From: Monosiga brevicollis MX1
Lineage: Eukaryota; Opisthokonta; Choanoflagellata; Craspedida; Salpingoecidae
Assembly (NCBI RefSeq): GCF_000002865.3
Contig: NW_001865047.1
Location: forward strand, 1,108,759 to 1,152,363
Reading direction: 5' to 3'
DNA length: 43,605 nucleotides
Made by a program: the position numbers and the translations under genes. The stretch's first letter is position 1. Every line of letters begins with the position of its first letter. Positions 3,499-38,600 of this stretch are shown piece by piece. Under the pieces are notes generated by a model, which saw only the letters and a program-made list of their open reading frames with translations, ran no database searches and was not told the DNA's origin.

Positions 3499-6400
3499 TT
3501 AAGATTGAACAATCGTGCATGCAACCAGCGTGCTTGCGCCGTGGGTATGCTCTGGCAACTCAACGATCACACGATCATTTGTGGCACCCGGGCAAGTCAA
3601 ACCATTGAGATTCAACACGACGTTCATGGGACGTGCTTCCAGATGAGGATTGTTGACGGCCAATTCAACTTCCGAGCTTCCCACAGCCTGCCGCACCTAA
3701 GTCTCCGCCAGGCGCACGATGAGCCTCTGGTGGTTGCAGCCCGCCCCGGCCTGCCCATCAAACTTTCCCGTGAAGATACAAAGACTCGCCGCTTACCGTA
3801 ACAATGCCCACTGACAATGGCGTGACAGACCAGCCAAGGGACGCATGCTGTTGTTGACTCACTACATTGCACCATACCATCGAGCGATGCAAGTCAAATC
3901 GTGAGCCAGGCGCGGTGGTTGCAAGATGCTCAGAGAATGACAATGGACGCAAATTGTTGGTCCAAGCGTACAGCGCGCAAGATAAGCGGTCGACATGACT
4001 TGGCGCTGCACTATAAAGACGGTTGCTGCATCAGTGGTCTGAACCATCACGGCTTGGACTGCCTCATCATTTGAGATGACAGTGACTTTGGAGGTGTCGG
4101 GCGCGCTATCCTCGCGGGTCAGGCGATAAGCGCATGTTGGCGTCACGGCTTTGCCAACACCGTGCACCACGCTGAGCGAGAAGACAGCGTGCGCCACGGG
4201 GTTGGAGGGTCCCTGCGTGATGTCGGCCCATGACCCGCGCTGCACCTATTGGTCATGGCAATCAAAACGGCCCCCAGAATCACCAAGTTGCTGGCCTTGC
4301 CCCCAGAAAGATGGGCAATCAAACAAGACCTTGACGCGAGACAAACCTCCGTGGATAGCTCGATCACGGCGTCAGGAGAGAGTTCAAGATCATAGCGGAT
4401 ACCATCGTGACGAAGGGCCTGAACGCCCATGAGCGAAACGCTTTGATTTGCGGCAAACTCTGTGTCCCAACGGTGAAATGTGGTGAGTTGTGCTTACGCA
4501 CGTGTTTGCGGTCGTGAAACGCCAACAAACCAGTCTGACTGCCATTGGTCCATTCAATGAGCACAGGGCCATTGAGCAGGCGTTGGTCAAGCGAGGTCGT
4601 GAGGTTGTAAGACAGATCCGTGCTGCTGAGATTGGCCGCTAGGGCGATGACGGCATCGTCGTAAAAGAACCACGACTTGGCTGTAGGTCATAGGTGCGAG
4701 CACGCAGCAGTGAGCGCACCAGCTGAACAGCGTCTGGTTGCCCCCTCCCCGGTCCTTTCCCCCCTTTTCTGCCAGTACAGACAGACCGGCATATATGTGA
4801 TCACTGTGGCCGCGAGCAAAGTCCATCGTGGCGGCAGCCACTTGTCCATCACTAGCGGCACCCGTCCAGGGGCGATGAATCACATCCTGCACCTGTGGGA
4901 CGAGCGGCAAGAGCGAGCTTGAGGTTAAGCGGCATGGTCTTGCGGTATATCACGCAAGGCATGGGCTGGGGTCGTGATGGACGAGGGCATACGGTTGCAC
5001 AGGTGTACTCTGTCGGGCTTTGCAACTCAGTAGTACCAGGCAGACGCTTCCAGTTCCACACTGTGCCGCGCCCAAGGTGCCAACACCAACGCCATCAGCA
5101 AAAGAAACGGGCTGCGTGCGAGAAACTTCAAGCACACAGGATGTTTGGGAGGCAAGAGTGCTGGCCACATGTACCTGGGAAGATGTTTTCGTACTCGCGT
5201 CCCGTTTGAAAGAGATTGACCACCCCGTCCGCTAGTTTGATGACCGAATGCATCCGACCGAATGCATCCGACCAAATGAGCGCAGGAAATGCGGAGTGAA
5301 TGCATCAATCTTGGGAGAACAGGCGGTGAGGCAAAAAGAGTTTGCCATTGAGGCCACCACACGTGACATACCAAGTGCGCGCCCTTGCAGGTTTTCGCCG
5401 TTAATACACTCCGAGTTGATGGTGCGGTTAGAGAACATGCGCAACGATATTGTCAAGTTTGGACGCTGATGCACGAGATAGTCAGAGTCGTAATAGTGTA
5501 CGGTCTCTGCCGGCCGGTCACAAGTCTCGGTGGTCAAAAGGCACTTGCCAAACGCCTGCAGCTCCGAGCTCTGTGGAGCGCTGGGCGATACCTAGAAGGA
5601 AGAAGGACAACTTTGTGAGACACTCAAAGACCCAACGACGTGGATTTACGTCGCCTACCTCAGGCAGAAGAGGCGCAAATATAACGGCTAGCGGCGTGAG
5701 GCGTGGAGGCTCAAACGCGGGGAAGGCCAGGCGAAAGTCGGTAAAGGCGGCAAAGTAGTGGTAGTGGCCTTGATTGATCTACATCACACAGGTGGCAGTT
5801 GAGCGCCGGATGTGCTTAGGAGGGGTGCAATGTTCGCGATGCCGCTTGTGCGGTGCGGTGCGGTGCGAGTCGAGTTGACGCATGGCCAACTGACATTGAA
5901 TTCGTCGTTTTGAACAAAGTATGTCATGAGCCTAAGCAGGAGCAGGGGGTCAAATGGAAAGGCATACATGGACAAAGCAAAGTTCAGAGGTTTGCATCAC
6001 AGACCGGCCAGAAGTAGTGTAATCAAAGTTGGGACCTCGGGTGGCCAGGCGTTGGCCCTTGAGGATGTATTGAGCCAGGACGTTCCACTGTGGGGTAAGC
6101 CGGTCAGAAATCAAGAGTAAGCATGTGTCGAGAAAAGGTCGGTGGACCGCACAATGCCGCGTCGCGTACGGGATCAGTGTCAATGGCATAGGAGGTGTTG
6201 GCAGCCCATGAGGTGATGCTGAGCATGTTGGCAGTGAAGATGGAACCGTAGCCCCAACCCATGTAAAGCTAAGGGTGTGGGTGACACGACGTCCATTCAT
6301 GAGTACGACAGCGATGTCATTGCGTCGATGAAGGAAGGTAGGGAAAGCAGCCAAGGCTATGACATGCCTGTGGTCCATGCTGGTGAAAGGAAAAGTCTTG

Positions 6401-8207: not shown

Positions 8208-10605
8208 ATGGCGGCGCCGGGTGAGGCACGGTCCGAGGCACCGGCCTCGCCGCCGCCATCACAGGAATTGGGCCGTGAAGCGTCTCGGGAAGGCGATGAC
8301 CTCATGTCGGACGATGTCAAGGTGGCCGAGGGCTACTTGGTGAAGAGTCCGCCCATTCAGAACCTGGCTTCGCCCAATTTCCGGCGATGGCGCCAACGCT
8401 ACTTTGTCCTCTGGGCCAACTCAAAACGCCTCGAGTACTTCTCCGATGCGAGTCAAAAACACCTCAAGGGTGTCATTGACCTCAACCGCTGTTGGCAAAT
8501 CAAAGACTCGGTCCAACACCCCAAGTTTACAAACGTCTTCTGGTGAGTTTGAACATTTTTTGCGCCCTTGACGCGCCACAGGCCCCCGTCCCCGCTGCCC
8601 CGCCTACAACCTGTCGCGACCCATGGTCGGCCTCAAGTCCGGCAAACGTACAAGTCCTCACACGTTGTTGCCGCTGCTTTGTGGCGTGGTCTTGGAACGC
8701 TTGCGTAGCGTGGCAGTGCCAGATCGTCGCTACTTTCTCATTGCAACCACAGACATTCAAAAAGCCGCCTGGCTCGCCAAACTCCGGTGCGTGTGTGCCC
8801 CCCTTGGTCAACCTGGACCCCAACTCGTCACAACTTTCAAGTCCACTGCCCTACTTCTTGCCCACCCTTGATTCCTCATCTCATTTCGGGCCCCCTCGGC
8901 TCACTCCCTCCGTGGTCATTCCGACAGGGAGGTGTGTCGGCACCCGGTGGCCAAGACAGAGTTTGTGCATGTGGACGTGCGAAAGCAGCGTTCCATCTCC
9001 CATGGCATTCTCGACTCGACCTTTGAAGCGCCTTCTTCTGCCCCGCTGCCCCGCCCATTGCGGGCAACCAACCCGCCGCAAGGCGTTGCCGCTGCAGCAC
9101 GCCTGCGTGCCCACCAGAATGTGGCACCTGCCGTGCCAGACCGCCCTTTGCCCGGTCGCACCTCTGCCCCACGCCCCACCAGCAAGCCCATTGATGAAGG
9201 CGAAGAAGAAGTTGTCTACCGCGCCAACACCGTCCCCTCCGTTCGCAGCAGCATCTGTGCGTTTCGTCGTTTTACAGACCCTGTTACTGTTGTTTAAAAA
9301 GTGCTTGCTCGTGTTTGATTTGGTGTACTCGTCTCCCCTCCATGAGCCCTCACCATTGGACAAAATGATTGTGCTTGACCACACCCCCCTCCCCCCTCCC
9401 TTCCTCCTCAGGCTCAACTGGTGGCGTGCCATCTGCTACCACGCCACCCCAAACCACGCCGCTCCTGCTCTTTCCGTGTGTCAGCCCGTCCGGACAACGT
9501 GGTTGGCTCCGTCTTGATCCGGTGCAACTCTGTCTTCTGGATGGCAACTGCAAGCTTGTCCGCCAAGTTTGGCCCCTTCAAAGCATTGTAGCCCACAGTC
9601 AAGTTGGCAACCATTTTCAACTCGAGGCTCGCGGCGAGGCCCATGTCGCGTTTCACCTCATCGATGATGGCCGCAATGTCTCCACCTACCTCGACTCCAT
9701 TCTGGCAAACACAAACCCGTCACCAGCCCCTGCTCAGATCCAGGTGTGTTTGATCGGCATCACACTGACAATGTTGATTGAAATTTGCCTCCTTGGATCT
9801 TTGAGACATGGCCGCACGCTCATGCCATTTGGTGCTTCGTGCATTCCCGCTCCGTGTACCCCATTTCCCCCCATGGCTTCAATGCAGTCACCCGTGGTCG
9901 CCGCTGCCGCTGCTGCTCGTCAGTCTCGCATTCTTCCCGGCCGGCAAAATACATTGTCAAGCCGTCGCTCCAACAGCATCCGCTCTCAGGTCTCCGAGGA
10001 TTTGCCGCCGCACGAGGAGTATGCGGTCTTGGAATTTGGTCCTCGACGTCGGGCGGCCCCACACCCTATTCGTGAGTTTAGTTCCGATAGCTCAGACCAA
10101 GACTCAGACGCAGACGCCCTGCCTCCTCCTATCCCCCGGCGCCAACAAAACATGTCCTTGACTGCACCAAACGCACCCGTTGCCCACGCGGCTCCAGACA
10201 TTGAAGCCGGTGAGGATAAGCGAGTGCGGCTTCTCAGAGCCGCTTCACAGGAAGAGACCAGCAGCGACGAGATGCTCGATGCAAACCCTGTCGCTGACAT
10301 AACCAACGAACCGGAAACCCAAGTCAAGCAGCTCGATCGAGTGCAATACGTCGAAGTGGATCAGCTCAAGACCTTGGCCTTGGCCAAGGCTTTGGAGGGT
10401 CAAACGAACACTATCGGCACTCGTGAAACCAGGCACGGTGCCACTGCGCCTCCTGTTCGACTTCAGCGGCCCTCCATGAAGTCTGGCACCAGCGTCATGG
10501 ATCATGAGTATGAAAAGGCTCGCCAACTCGGTACGTCCCGTGCAAGCACGTCATTATATGATGTTGGCTGACACACACCCTTTATCTTTCTTTTTTCTTT
10601 CTTTT

Positions 10606-10637
<32 letters not shown>

Positions 10638-10975
10638 TTCTCTTTTTCTTGTTTCGTGCTTCTCACCCAGATGCCTTTCTTTCGGCAGCGCGGGAGGTGA
10701 CTGTTGAAATGCATAGTGGTACGGGCTTTGTCTCCAGTCTCCTACAAGAGCTTGATGAGCTCGTGGATGAGGTACGTTGATGGCTTACTCGTTCGTTGAC
10801 GGCTTTACTCGTTCCATGACTTGCCACAAGATCGTCAACGTAATCCGTGCTCTGCTTATTGTAGGTGGATAAAGCCACTCAGGTCCAGGCGGAACGAGTT
10901 GCACCGTACGAAGAGTGGCTCCTAAACGATGCTGGTCGGCTTGAACTCAGCACAAACATGGGAAAGCCAAACTAG
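8208..10975 (+). CDS. PH + IRS-type PTB docking adaptor with Gab-like tail
   Basis: A multi-site adaptor predicted to bind membrane phosphoinositides and tyrosine-phosphorylated partners. Exons 8208-8542, 8709-8786, 8928-9256, 9412-9743, 9888-10530, 10671-10771 and 10865-10975 close in phase to 642 residues. The PH domain (about 41-138) reads EGYLVKSPP, RRWRQRYFVLW, GVIDLNRCWQI, RYFLIATTD and AAWLAKLR, most like Gab/DOS PH domains. Residues about 277-350 form an IRS/DOK-type PTB domain: GWLRLDPVQLCLLD, VRQVWPLQSI and HFQLEARGE. The tail is long and probably disordered. It carries the SH3 ligand PPIPRR (about 438-443) and tyrosines in EEYAVLEF (Y403), RVQYVEVDQLKTLALAKAL (Y512) and DHEYEKA (Y566). 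The Y512 segment resembles the SHP2-binding tail motif of Gab1/Gab2. The C-terminus contains a short predicted helix (SSLLQELDELVDEVDKA). Order and content differ from standard DOK, IRS and Gab proteins. Confidence 0.88.
10580..10650 (+). repeat. Polypyrimidine (CTTT)n-like tract in an adaptor intron
   Basis: An impure T-rich run fills the intron between 10530 and 10671. It gives poly-Lys and poly-Phe open frames that are not genes. Confidence 0.85.
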
Positions 10976-11218: not shown

Positions 11219-14200
11219 TCAAAAAAAGTGATCCAGCGCGCAGGGGCCCACTGGAGGAGCAGGCGCCATTTCACTTGGAACATCAAAAAATCTATAATTT
11301 TGACAGCACAAAGAAGACGATGAAAGACGATGAGGGTTGTCTTGGACTGTGAACATGAGTCTATGAATCTCCTGATGACTGGTTGAAAGAACAGGTCTGC
11401 TCGGAGCCCATGAGATCTTACCGTGTTGGATCGTCTTTGGAAATGTCGGGCACAAATGGTGGCGGTATACATTGTTGGGCTAGACTGGCCCAATCTACCC
11501 GAGCAAACCAAATGTGGTGCTTTATGTGCATGATGCCCTCGATTCCTGTACCTAAACGGTCTGCATTGACATCTCTGCCCCAGCGTGACAAGGAAAGTTG
11601 TCCAAAAAAGAAGCGAAGAGCAACTCATGTCAGCATGTCGTCAGAAGAAGCATTGGCAACAGCGGTGCATGCTTTATCGGTTCAGATGGTCAGCGCAAAG
11701 CTTGACAGGATCACGCGCGAATGCGCTCATCGGCAGAAAGAACGTACAACAAGCGACTATTATTCTGACCTGCAGAGACGATAAACGAGGTCTTTGGCGT
11801 CACACCCGAGCCGCGGGCTACAGTGGATCTGATCCACTCCCAAGACAATCTTGTTGTACACTTGCATGGGATCCGCATGCTGAAACGGGGTCCTGCGCAT
11901 GTGTGTCAGACGTGCCCAAGTCAGTGATTTTGACGTGCAAGTCTACATGAGGTGGCACGTAGAGGATACCTCACCTGCTTGTCAAAAGCTCGTATATAAA
12001 GATGCCAAAAGCCCAGTAGTCGCACGTCTGATCGTGTCCCTGCAGTTGGTTAGCAACCACAATACTGCAGCGTAAGAACTCATTTCAAGCGAGCTGATCG
12101 ATCTTCACTTTTGCAGGGTGGGCTAGCTCAAAGACATGGCCAATCATTGTTGTTGCCAATGACAGATGGCCATGCGTGTAAATGGCGCCATTCACACAGT
12201 ACCGCAACCTCCTGTGTTTTCTGTTTCTCTTCAACCAGAATCCCATAACGAGCCAGTGACCTCGTGTCACCATCTGCACAGACCTGATTCATGATGATTT
12301 CTGGTGCCATGTACTCCGGGGTGCTAAACGCGAGATGGATTCCACACACGTGTGTGAACTCAGCACCGCTTGGTACCTCTTGGCCTCTCATGGCAACTTT
12401 TACACACCCACAAAAGGTCCAGGTCTTCTTGTTGCCTGGCAGGTGGCGAGCAAAGCCAAAGTCCACCTATAGCCAGGTGACATGAAGAGACGCGGCTCTA
12501 TAATCTAGCAGCAGGTCTCGCCCACTCTGACTTACCAACTTGACATAGCCACGGGCATCAAGCATTACATTTTCGGGTTTCAGATCGCGGTACAGGATGT
12601 GCCGATGATGAAGATAGGCCAGGCCTTCAAGGACACAGGCGCAATAGAAGCGAGCGTGATCCTCAGCCAGCGGGCCGCCCAGCCTATGATCAAACAGTCA
12701 TCGAATGAGTTTGGAATGTCGAGCGAAAAGGCAGCGGCACAAGGCCGCTTGGATGACTGGACATATTGTGGTGCACACACTTGAGATGACGCCATAGCTC
12801 GCCGCCTAGTAGTGCCTAACGTTCAAATTGAGAGGTCGGAGCAGATTATGGATCACATTGTAAAGTCGGATGACCATGTATCACTTTATGTCGTTGGCTA
12901 CTTCATTCCTGATATGGGCGTGTGCACGCTCGTGTGCATCTGCAGGCACCAATAGGACCTCTTGACACAGACACAGGTGCAGACACAGACACACCTCAGA
13001 CAGTAGGTAGAAATAGCAGTCATCTTTGAAGGTTGCGACTAGCCGTGTGCAAAAGGGCGAGTCCAGTCCGGCCATAATCTACAAAGCGTGGCCTGACAGG
13101 TCAAAGACTGGAGTATCATGCCCGCCTTGCATCACAATGGCATACCTCGCGCTCTGATTGCACGTATACCTCTTGCTTGGATTGCAAAACGGCGGCCTTG
13201 CTAATGGCCTGATAAGAACAACAAGGAATTAGCTCCGAGCTTCTCGCAGTGATTCGGGCAACAACACACCTTCAGGGCCCATTGCTTTTGATGCTGTGGG
13301 GCATAGACCAGGTCGACACGCCCAAAGCCACCCACACCTAACACACTGTTGGCAATTACACCCCCACACACATACATACACAAAACACAGCTAGAGTCAA
13401 TTGCTGGGTCATTGTAAACGGTCATCATCATTTAGAACCGTTTTAGGGATATTAACCGAGCCCTATTTACCTCAAGACGTGCAGGTCTTCCAGTCTAAGA
13501 TCAGTGTCCAGCAAGTGTTGGGATGGCATTGGCAAAGTCTCATCCTCTGCATCTATTCATTGGTTCGACCAGCCGCGTGAATCGACACAAGCCTTCGTGT
13601 GCATTTAAAGTTTTAAAGAGAGTCCAGCTCACGGTTTTCATACCCAAGTAAGAGAGCCGACCCAGGACTTTCAACGGCACGATAAATTTGGCAAACGTCT
13701 GAGTTTCGTTGGGGTCAATATGGTCGATCGATGGCGCATCAGCCCGAGCGATCGTGTTTGAGGAGTTGTAAGTGTAGGAGGAGACTGACCGACTGATCGA
13801 GTGTGGCACAAGCCACAGCCGTCTTTGCTCTGCAAGAGGCCGTGCGAACGCTATTGGTCTGAAGCAAGGCGCCCTCGCCAAAGTGATCGCCACACTTCAA
13901 AACGCGCAGGACATGGCCATTTTGCACCACCTCGACCTCACCCTTTGTAATGAGATAAAAGGTGTGCCCCTTGTCCCCCTCGCGAACAATCAGCTGCGTC
14001 TCATCGAAAGTAACCTGGGGATAGAATAGGGTATGAGCAGTCGGCATCAGCGTCCCAAGGGATCACACCAAAGCCTGGTCCTACCTCGCACGCCCCCGCC
14101 ACGAGCTGGGACAGATAAGAGTTGTCGAGGCCTTGGAAGAGTGGCATGCGATGAAACAGACCTGCGAGCCGCTCGTGCTCGTCCATCTTTGCCTGCATCA

Positions 14201-15563
14201 GTGCATAGACGTGAAGATGCAGTCGTGTGCGTGAAAAGAAGTGAGCAACGCCAAGAGCACGCCGGCGAGGAGATAAATGACCTTGCGGGTTATAAACTTG
14301 AAGGCTGGCCGGTCAATTGTAAAAGCTTGAACGTCAGTCTGCGCTACAAGCACAGAGGTTGATGGTCGTGGGTGGAGATGGATGAAGCAGCCAAGTAACG
14401 AGCCATTGCAACTCTCTACCTGTCACCGTCGCAGTGCGCTGGCAATCATAAAGAAGCGCCAGCTCGCCAAAGACAAGTGGGGCCATGCAGAGCTTGGCAC
14501 CGTGACCTGTCGAAATGTTGAGAGTACCCTCGATGGCTACAAAGAGTCGTTCACCTCGGGCACCGCGTCTAATAACGGTAGTGCCAGCTTGGTAAAAGCG
14601 GGGCTCCATGCTTGTGGTCAAGGCCTGGCGTTGGCCCAGCGTGAGCTTGCTTGTGTACGTGTTTTGATCCAGGGCCTTGAGCAAGACTGCTTTGGTACTG
14701 AACGTGAGCAAAGCCGTGCAGGGAAGCCGGAAGGACATCAAATGATTAGCATTGCAACAGATGTGGCCTCAAATCAGGGTGCATCGGCGGACGCACGCAT
14801 CATCGACGCTGTTGGTGAACGCAACAGACGTGTGTGGAGTGCGGGACGCCACCAAGCCGGTGCGAGGGCACCCTCCGACACTCTTTGCCATGGATGTTGG
14901 TCGTGCCTGCTAAAATAGTGCAACGTCTGGTCAAGCTGACGTAGAAGGTGTGAAAAGTGCACAGGGTTTCCTGAATACTTTAGACGCGCGGTGAGCCAAC
15001 CTCGCTCTGTGCCGCAAGAGCCAAGCCGTCGTTGCTGATGACTGTGATGCGAGGCACCTCAAGACGGGTATATTCAGGTGGTGCCGACAAGAGGGTAGAG
15101 GACTCTAATAAGAGTAGCTGCGGATCTCGGGCGTGTTGCCGCGCAACACATTCAAGTTTCTCCAGCTGCAGGTCAAGGGAAGGGGGTGAGGAGTGGCGCG
15201 CCGTGTCCGGCAGTGCGAAAGACATGAGGGCAGGTACCTCGGTAGAGAGGTGATGTTTCTCGGCAAGAAGGCAGTCATGTTTATGTTGGAGTTGCTCTTG
15301 GTCAAGAGCAAGGCGGGTGAGACGCGTGCGCAGCGCTTGTGTAGTGCGCAGCGCCGCGTCCAAATCAAGTTGTAGGCGAGTGCACTTGCTGTTGACGGTT
15401 GCGAGCGGCTTGTGTGCTTGCTGTGCATGGAGTGCAGCATCTCCTGAGCGGGGCATGAGTGAAAGGTATGGCACAGGGCACGGTGGCGGTCGAGAAGAAG
15501 GGACACGGTTGGCACAAAGGTGTAAAAACGAGTGCAACCTGGACGTGAGACAGCAGAGCCCAT
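11219..15563 (-). CDS. PRKG: cGMP-dependent protein kinase (PKG)
   Basis: AGC-family kinase switched on by cGMP, with the classic PKG order. The start at 15563 gives MGSAVSRPG, a candidate N-myristoylation signal, then a heptad-rich segment (exon 15443-15238, [19 protein letters not shown] onward) for dimerisation. Exon 15165-15001 and a small tentative exon follow. The first cyclic-nucleotide domain ends [16 protein letters not shown] and the second FGEGALL then SVRTAS; both have the Arg-Thr pair typical of cGMP sites. Kinase motifs: [71 protein letters not shown] and [19 protein letters not shown]. The AGC tail reads [19 protein letters not shown] then [15 protein letters not shown], and ends ALDHFF at 11219. 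Roughly 17 exons; the junction near 14990-14740 and parts near 13760-13540 and 11820-11630 are not fully resolved. It shares a promoter region with DNAI1. Confidence 0.92.
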
Positions 15564-35694: not shown

Positions 35695-38600
35695 CTACAA
35701 GGAAGACGAAGACGCCCCCTTTTTCTGTGATGTGGGCATCACTGAGAGAATGTGTGAATGCACAAAGCTCCAAACGTCCACCTTGGGCTCACCGCCAATG
35801 CGAAGTGAGGACAAATCCGGAGTTGCTGTTGCAAAGTCGGGACCAGCCTGCATGGTGGTGGAGTGGCTGACCACTTTCGGGGAGGTGTCCTAAGGAAATT
35901 TCCAAACCAGATGCGTGTGTGAGAGAAGTACCTGAAGGTGGTGCAACAAGCGATTGCTTCTGCACATGTGGTATGTGGTGCGGTGCGCCATCACTGTTCA
36001 GCACGCACCTTCACTGGCACGGGCCCAAGGTAGAGCTCAAGAACCCGGCTGGTGCGCTTGATACGCCCCGTTGTCGCCATAGCGGATTGAATTTGGCGCA
36101 GAGTCATGGAGGAAAGAAGCATCTTCGAATACGCGGCATCGGTGAAGAAGCGATACTTGCTGGCCTGCTGTGCGTCCTCCAGCACATCGGCCATCACCTC
36201 CGACAGTGTGGCAAAGCCGCTGGCAAAGGGCACTGTCAGGGCCTGACCATCCATGTCAATCTCGACGGTGAAGTATTCCTCCTCTTCCATGGAAGCATCA
36301 GCGCGGCGCACGTTGCGCGGGACATCAGACCCCAAGGCCATGGAGCTCGGTAATTGGGAAAGGCTAGGGCCGGTGGAGAGTGCAAATCGCGGGTCATACA
36401 TGGCTTGCGCACCCGGCATTGGAGAGACAGTGCGTTGCAGATCACGATGCAGGTCCAATGCAGGGGTGGAGGGGCCGCTGGCTTTTAGGACCTCGACGTC
36501 GGGGGCCTCGAGTTGCACGTCACCGTTCTCGCGACCCAGGAGGAAGAAGGTCTTCATCTCACCCTTGCCCTTGACCGCGATACGACCACGGGTGAGGTAA
36601 TTCCATTCGGAGCGCTTGTGAAGAGATTTCAAAAAAGCGTAGCTACACTGCACAGCGCCGGGAACGCCTGTGGATTCCATGCGCGAGGACACGTTGACCG
36701 TGTCGCCAAAGAGGCAGTAGCGCGGACGCTTCATGCCCACGACACCGGCCATGCAGACACCCGAATGAAGACCGACGCGAATGCGCAAGGCCTCGCCATC
36801 CATGGGTGACAAGACAGTGGCAGCTGCCGCCACCATGTCCACGGCAAAACCGGCGAGGTTATCTGCGTGGCGTGGATTGGCCACGGGTAGACCGCTGGCC
36901 ACCATGTAAGCATCCCCGATTGTTTCGACCTTGAAAACGTTGTGCTTCTCGCAAAGTACGTCAAACTTGGAGAACAGCTCGTTGAGCATGGCCATCACAT
37001 CCGTGGGCGACACATTGCTGGAGATGTTGGTGAAGCCCACAATGTCGGAGAACAGGAGTGAAACATTTTCGTAACGCTCGGCGCCGGGCATGATGCCCTT
37101 CTGCAGCGAGTCGGCAATGGTGGGAGGCAGAATACTGTACAAGAGCTCGTGAATCCTCATCTTTTCACGATTGACGTTTTCACGCTCAACCTCAAGCTCG
37201 CGCGTTAGCACCTCCAACTCCTTGGCCATGCCGATCGTGGCGCTTGAGTGTTGTTGCGCAAACACCATGTCACGGGCATTAGAATGGACGGGCAACTCCA
37301 CGAGGTCAATGTCATACGTCTTGAGCTCCTCCAAGTTGCTGAGGTGGGGAGTGCCAACAAAGACCATGACGTCCATCTCCTGCTCATAGCGGACTTCGCC
37401 CTTGAGAAAGAGATGGCCTTTGAGGTTGGCCACACCGACGCGGCGATAGCGCTCGGCAGCTGCTCCAGTGAGCTCGTACGTACGGCCAGTGACAGGGCAC
37501 TTCATAGAAACGGGCTCGTCTCTCGCGGCATCGTCGCGGACAACTGCAAAGACCATCTGAGAACCATCCCATTCCGATTTCTTGTCAAACTCAAACTTGA
37601 TGGTGTAGGGTCGCACCACGCGAGCAATGGCGTCCAAAGAGTCGCCCACGCAGGATTTCGCAAAACGCTTGGCCAAGTTGCTACCGATCGAAGTGACCTT
37701 GAAGTCGCGATTGAAAGACAGATGCCAAGGAAAAAGGGCATCGAGGGTATCAGGACTCAGATTGAGGTTGCCGTTGTTTGAAGAGTAAGTGGCTTGAGTC
37801 TTGATGCGGGTGCCAAAGGTACGCTCGATGTTGTCTGTCTTGATGGTAAACTCGTCGTAGCCGACGTCCTCACGGCGCTTGATGGTGGTAAACTCGAGCT
37901 GGAGGTCGAAAAGAGCGCTGGCAACAGCGGTAAGAAGGCCCCAGAGGTAGGGACGAATGCCGTCGCGGCTGGAGAAATACTGCATGAGAATGGTATTATC
38001 CTCATTGCGAAATGCGTTGATGGAGGGACCGGACATGGAGGGGTAGACGTTGGCAAAGTTCATGTGCATGGTGTCCAGGTTGCGACACAACATGAAAAAA
38101 TCATCCCCCAAACTAGAGTACAAGGGGCAAGACAAGAACCAAATAAGTGGGAAGCGAGTGAACCAAGACCAGCAAGCGCATGTGTATATGCATGGCTTGG
38201 GGTGGCGGCCGGCCGGCAGCTCCATACCTCTGGGCCAAAGGCAGGTAGCCCTTGCGAATCAAGGGCGGGAGCTGGTACAGGCCTGTTTGAAACAGAACCT
38301 CTTCCACCGTGAGACCCGTCACCTGGAGGGGAGAACGAGCGGGCAGAGAAGGAAAGTTAATAAAGACACCGCAGCTGCAGGGCTGCGTGCCGCGGACGAG
38401 AAGGGGAAACGAAACCGTTCAGCGCCGGCGAGGGGATGAAAGCGCGCACCTCTGCAGAAACGGCGACGCAAATGAGGGTCTCATCGTCGGGTTGTGCTGT
38501 GTTGAAGGTAATGTCAGTGTCGACACCGCGCCAGCTCGAGGATTTTGGCAATTTCTTCATCGGCATTGTCGCGCGTTTGAAGCCACTCGACGAGCGCCTC

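Follow-up and report, generated by a model that had tools for sequence, protein, structure and literature searches.

The choanoflagellate Monosiga brevicollis MX1 carries, at positions 8208-10975 of the forward strand of a 43,605-nucleotide stretch of contig NW_001865047.1 (the window, to which all positions refer unless another contig is named), a gene whose product is probably a Gab-like docking protein that would recruit SHP2 and has an F3/PTB-like domain in addition. Seven exons separated by GT-AG introns join into a single frame of 642 codons without inner stop. The encoded protein starts with a PH domain and carries in its tail a tyrosine, Y512, within a motif closely resembling the Gab1 site around phosphotyrosine 659 (pY659), and an SHP2-type phosphatase whose SH2 pockets are largely conserved is encoded in the same genome. 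The docking of SHP2 on Gab proteins is a central relay in animal growth-factor signalling. If the Y512 site and the conserved phosphatase were functional in the choanoflagellate, this link between scaffold and phosphatase would predate animals. A review from 2009 did not find any bona fide Gab/DOS protein in Monosiga (PMC2747914), and no description of the window protein was found among the listed open-licence papers, which were covered mostly at the level of titles and the beginnings of abstracts. For a sponge, structural matches for Gab1 and Gab2 were reported (PMC10176882).

A candidate Gab1-like SHP2 site in the tail

The motif around Y512, DRVQYVEVDQLKTLAL, shares 12 of 16 residues with Gab1 around Y659 in an ungapped alignment (BLOSUM62 score 55). 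When eight pieces of the M. brevicollis genome were scored in six frames, the runner-up among the 112,809 positions reached 30. The Gab1 segment had been given in an earlier note on this DNA and could be verified in the PDB: a phmmer search with a 30-residue tail query against 177,635 distinct sequences (expectation value E up to 10) returned Gab1 chain 9qcd_C as its sole match (E=0.057). Within its own protein the motif reaches an E of about 4.5e-5 under standard statistics, which is beyond chance. The Gab1 residues R-3, V-2, V+1, V+3, D+4 and Q+5 are kept, and the identity reaches further through KTLAL. For gp130 it was reported that residues -2 to +5 retain the whole affinity (PMC12878756), so that SH2 binding alone would not fully explain the shared KTLAL beyond these positions. 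Gab1 pY659 binds the tandem SH2 domains of SHP2 with a dissociation constant of 27 nM, and the C-terminal SH2 domain (C-SH2) prefers hydrophobic residues at +1 and +3, an aromatic residue at +5 and an anion at -1 (Table 2 for the affinity; PMC12878756). The proposal of the earlier note that Y512 lies in a Gab-type SHP2 site is upheld by the 12/16 identity, as a candidate site predicted from the sequence.

The tail holds two tyrosine sites of the SHP2 type, at 403 and 512. Y403 in HEEYAVLEF is predicted to suit the C-SH2 domain well and the N-terminal SH2 domain (N-SH2) except for the glutamate at -2. Moreover, two PxxPx[RK] patterns, predicted SH3 ligands, lie at residues 205 and 438, and no [RK]xxPxxP pattern occurs in the 642 residues.

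An SHP2-type phosphatase in the same genome

Exons for an SH2 domain, a second SH2 domain and a tyrosine phosphatase follow each other in this order at C39:699643-702454 on the reverse strand, in a genome with 114 SH2 and 83 tyrosine-phosphatase matches, both counted per exon. A joined piece of 327 residues, spanning the two SH2 domains and running into the phosphatase domain, matches human SHP2/PTPN11 with E=4.2e-113 (381 bits) and SHP1 with E=7.2e-104 (351 bits), showing that the phosphatase is SHP2-like or descended from the common ancestor of SHP1 and SHP2. The presence of Shp2 and Grb2 homologues in Monosiga was already published (PMC7260276). The N-SH2 domain agrees with its human counterpart in 66 of 98 residues, and 16 of 22 listed positions are kept, including R32, S34, S36, H53 and K55, the differences among them being K35R, T42A, H85P, Q87E, K91V and E97D. 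In the C-SH2 domain, as read by eye from the alignment, E123, R138, S140, Q141 and S142 are kept. Furthermore, it was shown that tails phosphorylated by M. brevicollis kinases then bind an SH2 domain (PMC3584944).

As a separate observation, the alanine of this N-SH2 domain at the human T42 position corresponds to the human SHP2 change T42A, which is found in Noonan syndrome and is reported to raise the N-SH2 affinity (PMC8591604).

Gene model

The M. brevicollis assembly comprises 39.47 Mb in 57 contigs, in which the final 21 bases of a published M. brevicollis 3' primer for HMTK1 (PMC3082566) match one place, compared with none in the reversed control. The window is intron-rich eukaryotic DNA; its source is a unicellular relative of animals, as the earlier note had stated. 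The same note had given the gene extent and the position of Y512 correctly, in agreement with the continuous frame over all exons, and its claims of a PH domain, of YAVLEF and of PPIPRR hold as well, the latter two being located at residues 403 and 438. The exons and sequence features are as follows.

8208-8542, +: exon 1 (open frame, ATG at 8208, donor GT at 8543)
8709-8786, +: exon 2 (AG acceptor picked to keep the frame and the PH domain running)
8928-9256, +: exon 3 (open frame, splice sites)
9412-9743, +: exon 4 with the F3/PTB-like domain (open frame, splice sites)
9888-10530, +: exon 5, coding for the tail with Y403 and Y512 (open frame, splice sites, codon score)
10671-10771, +: exon 6 (open frame, splice sites)
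10865-10975, +: exon 7 with the stop codon (open frame, splice sites)
8328-8940, +: PH domain, residues 41-142, over exons 1-3 (Pfam PF00169, E=4.4e-11)
9492-9716, +: predicted PTB-superfold domain, talin-F3-like, about residues 275-349 (profile scores, alignment)
10020-10022, +: Y403 in HEEYAVLEF (hydrophobic +1/+3, aromatic +5, anionic -1)
10125-10142, +: PPIPRR, class II SH3 ligand pattern, residues 438-443 (pattern match)
10335-10382, +: DRVQYVEVDQLKTLAL, candidate SHP2 site like Gab1 pY659, with Y512 (12/16 identity to Gab1)

A codon score, with four long open frames of M. brevicollis as its training set, ranks the used frame first of six in all seven exons; scores of at least 0 also occur in 3 of 18 intron frames, so that the score backs the gene model and does not prove it. 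Intron 4 (9744-9887, 144 bases) has no in-frame stop and might therefore be retained in the predicted transcript, which would lengthen the protein by 48 residues with the flanks unchanged. Its read-through frame has a codon score of -0.23, compared with -0.03 to 0.16 for the seven exons.

The PH domain and the middle domain

The top PDB match of the PH domain is the PH domain of DAPP1 (1fao, E=9.5e-7), and it is distant from the reference PH sequences assumed for DOK1 and IRS1. It can be described as DAPP1/Gab-like from its sequence; its assignment to the Gab subtype is putative, the Gab PH sequences used for comparison being assumed likewise.

The sole other place in the genome matched by this PH domain (E=6.8e-4) is at C15:238500-246500, a candidate adaptor of the order PH-SH2-SH3, whose PH domain starts with GWLIKSPP.

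For the middle of the protein, an IRS/DOK-type PTB domain had been proposed in the earlier note. What stands of this claim is a likely PTB superfold: the 75 residues match a home-made profile of 13 PTB/F3 sequences with 13.6 bits and a profile of four FERM-F3 sequences with 9.0 bits, scores matched by 0 of 1000 shuffles in each case, and talin F3 sequences score highest among 15 compared. What does not stand is the IRS/DOK type. A profile of nine IRS/DOK/FRS sequences, which is small and includes four partial sequences, gives 1.8 bits and is matched by 30 of 1000 shuffles. The Pfam IRS model reaches 15.7 bits (E=0.016) on a 75-residue slice and 13.4 bits (E=0.083) on a 188-residue slice, both below its cut-off of 22 bits, and it is absent from the Pfam listing of the whole protein (E up to 10). 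The columns of the phosphotyrosine-binding arginines of IRS-1 are occupied by V, A and a gap, the third being alignment-dependent as an arginine sits directly past the gap. An IRS-type PTB identity was rejected on these grounds. The reading as a PH plus PTB protein of the DOK/IRS kind likewise had to be given up, as the second domain scores with FERM-F3 and the PH domain lies far from those of DOK1 and IRS1. Pfam listed no FERM F1, F2 or rod domain in the 642-residue protein.

IRS-type PTB exons occur elsewhere in the genome. One at C54:63428-63580 (reverse strand, within C54:60000-67500; E=8e-13) keeps the arginines, and upstream of it lies an open frame with MGCTGSKQ, which resembles an FRS2-like myristoylation start; matches for FRS2 in choanoflagellates were judged unconvincing (PMC7260276). 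At C56:330000-337500 (about positions 3855-4748 of this piece) an IRS-type PTB exon is followed by an open frame dense in tyrosine sites (NEYAEV, SGYAEP, PAYADV), which is perhaps another docking protein.

Proposed mechanism and alternatives

The following mechanism is proposed for a Gab-like docking protein of this architecture. The DAPP1/Gab-like PH domain would bring the protein to a phosphoinositide-rich membrane, and in its tail Y512, and probably also Y403, would become targets of the cell's own tyrosine kinases. Of the two SH2 domains of the cell's SHP2, pY512 would take one, most likely the C-SH2 domain like Gab1 pY659, and pY403 could occupy the other one; if Y403 were placed on the N-SH2 domain, the favoured head-to-tail order would be predicted to result (PMC10231330). 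By this docking SHP2 would be localised and opened, in the way that Gab1 acts on it in animals. Contacts to other partners would be made by the F3/PTB-like domain, probably without phosphotyrosine, and by the PxxPxR sites.

Several observations weigh against this proposal. In a blind search the motif is not significant, neither for a proteome of assumed size (E about 0.37) nor for the six-frame genome (E 5.5). None of the motifs YxxM for p85, YxxP for Crk and YxN for Grb2 occurs in the 642 residues, and PxxxRxxKP, the pattern of the typical Grb2 C-SH3 site, has 0 matches in them. This typical site is also missing from DOS proteins and SOC-1 (PMC2747914). The residue at -1 of Y512 is Q compared with D in Gab1, and the C-SH2 domain favours an anion at this position (PMC12878756); human C-SH2 K120 is P in M. 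brevicollis in the alignment read by eye. At -2 of Y403 stands the glutamate, where the N-SH2 domain takes a hydrophobic residue (PMC8591604), and the C-SH2 pattern fits better. Y403 and Y512 are 109 residues apart, far above the reported optimum: in strong SHP2 activators the linker measures about 40 angstrom, and longer linkers are reported to cut activation (PMC10231330). Outside the M. brevicollis genome no relative turned up in the collections searched, none of them a eukaryote collection. Finally, simple vertical descent of the SHP2 site is not favoured because the sea anemone Gab (NeGab) has no bona fide SHP2 motif (PMC2747914).

It is possible that the resemblance arose by convergence, i.e., that a choanoflagellate adaptor with a DAPP1-like PH domain independently gained an SHP2 site, giving a Gab-like function without common descent. 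However, the identity runs into KTLAL, past the SH2-contacting residues, and the PH domain, the proline-rich part and the SHP2 site lie in the Gab order within one protein. A tentative and rather unlikely extension of the Gab-like reading is that the ancestor of the animal Gab/DOS proteins survives in the form of the window protein, a platform of PH and F3/PTB-like domains that was wired to SHP2 before animals, and that the middle domain was lost later in the animal Gab lineage, which acquired Grb2 recruitment. It is doubtful that the protein is instead an adaptor of adhesion molecules or receptor tails, whose F3-like domain would bind unphosphorylated NPxY-like tails and whose SHP2 site would mainly serve negative feedback and not a Gab-type relay. 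A fusion of two genes in the gene model, one for a PH protein and one for a protein with the F3 domain and the SHP2 site, is very improbable: the exon joins were drawn from genomic sequence alone, but the frame runs on across all six introns with GT-AG ends, and two features speak against separate genes: in exon 4 no in-frame ATG follows the upstream stop ahead of the domain, and intron 3 (9257-9411) contains neither AATAAA nor ATTAAA.

Comparison with known docking proteins

The window protein shares with Gab1, Gab2, DOS and SOC-1 the N-terminal PH domain, proline-rich SH3 ligand patterns and a tyrosine-bearing tail with an SHP2 site near-identical to that of Gab1 pY659, whereas it differs in its additional F3/PTB-like domain, its non-animal source and the absence of typical Grb2, p85 and Crk sites. 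With DOK, IRS and FRS2 it shares a PTB-superfold domain, preceded in DOK and IRS by a PH domain, and a tyrosine-bearing tail; in contrast, its middle domain scores unlike the PTB domains of these families and has no aligned arginines, and its PH domain is distant from those assumed for DOK1 and IRS1. The protein is therefore assigned neither to Gab/DOS, with which it may or may not share descent and whose p85, Crk and typical Grb2 sites it lacks, nor to DOK/IRS, as the PTB features of that group were looked for and found to be absent. DAPP1 (Bam32), the source of the top PDB match for the PH domain, carries an SH2 domain, whereas Pfam (E up to 10) lists none for the window protein. Talin resembles it in the F3 domain and differs by its FERM F1, F2 and rod domains.

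Other signalling genes in the window

Two parts of nitric oxide-cyclic GMP signalling lie within the same 43.6-kb window, both on the reverse strand. Positions 35991-38225 encode a soluble guanylate cyclase with HNOB, HNOBA and cyclase domains, and positions 12128-14741 hold PKG-like frames with two cyclic nucleotide-binding domains and a kinase piece that scores below its cut-off.
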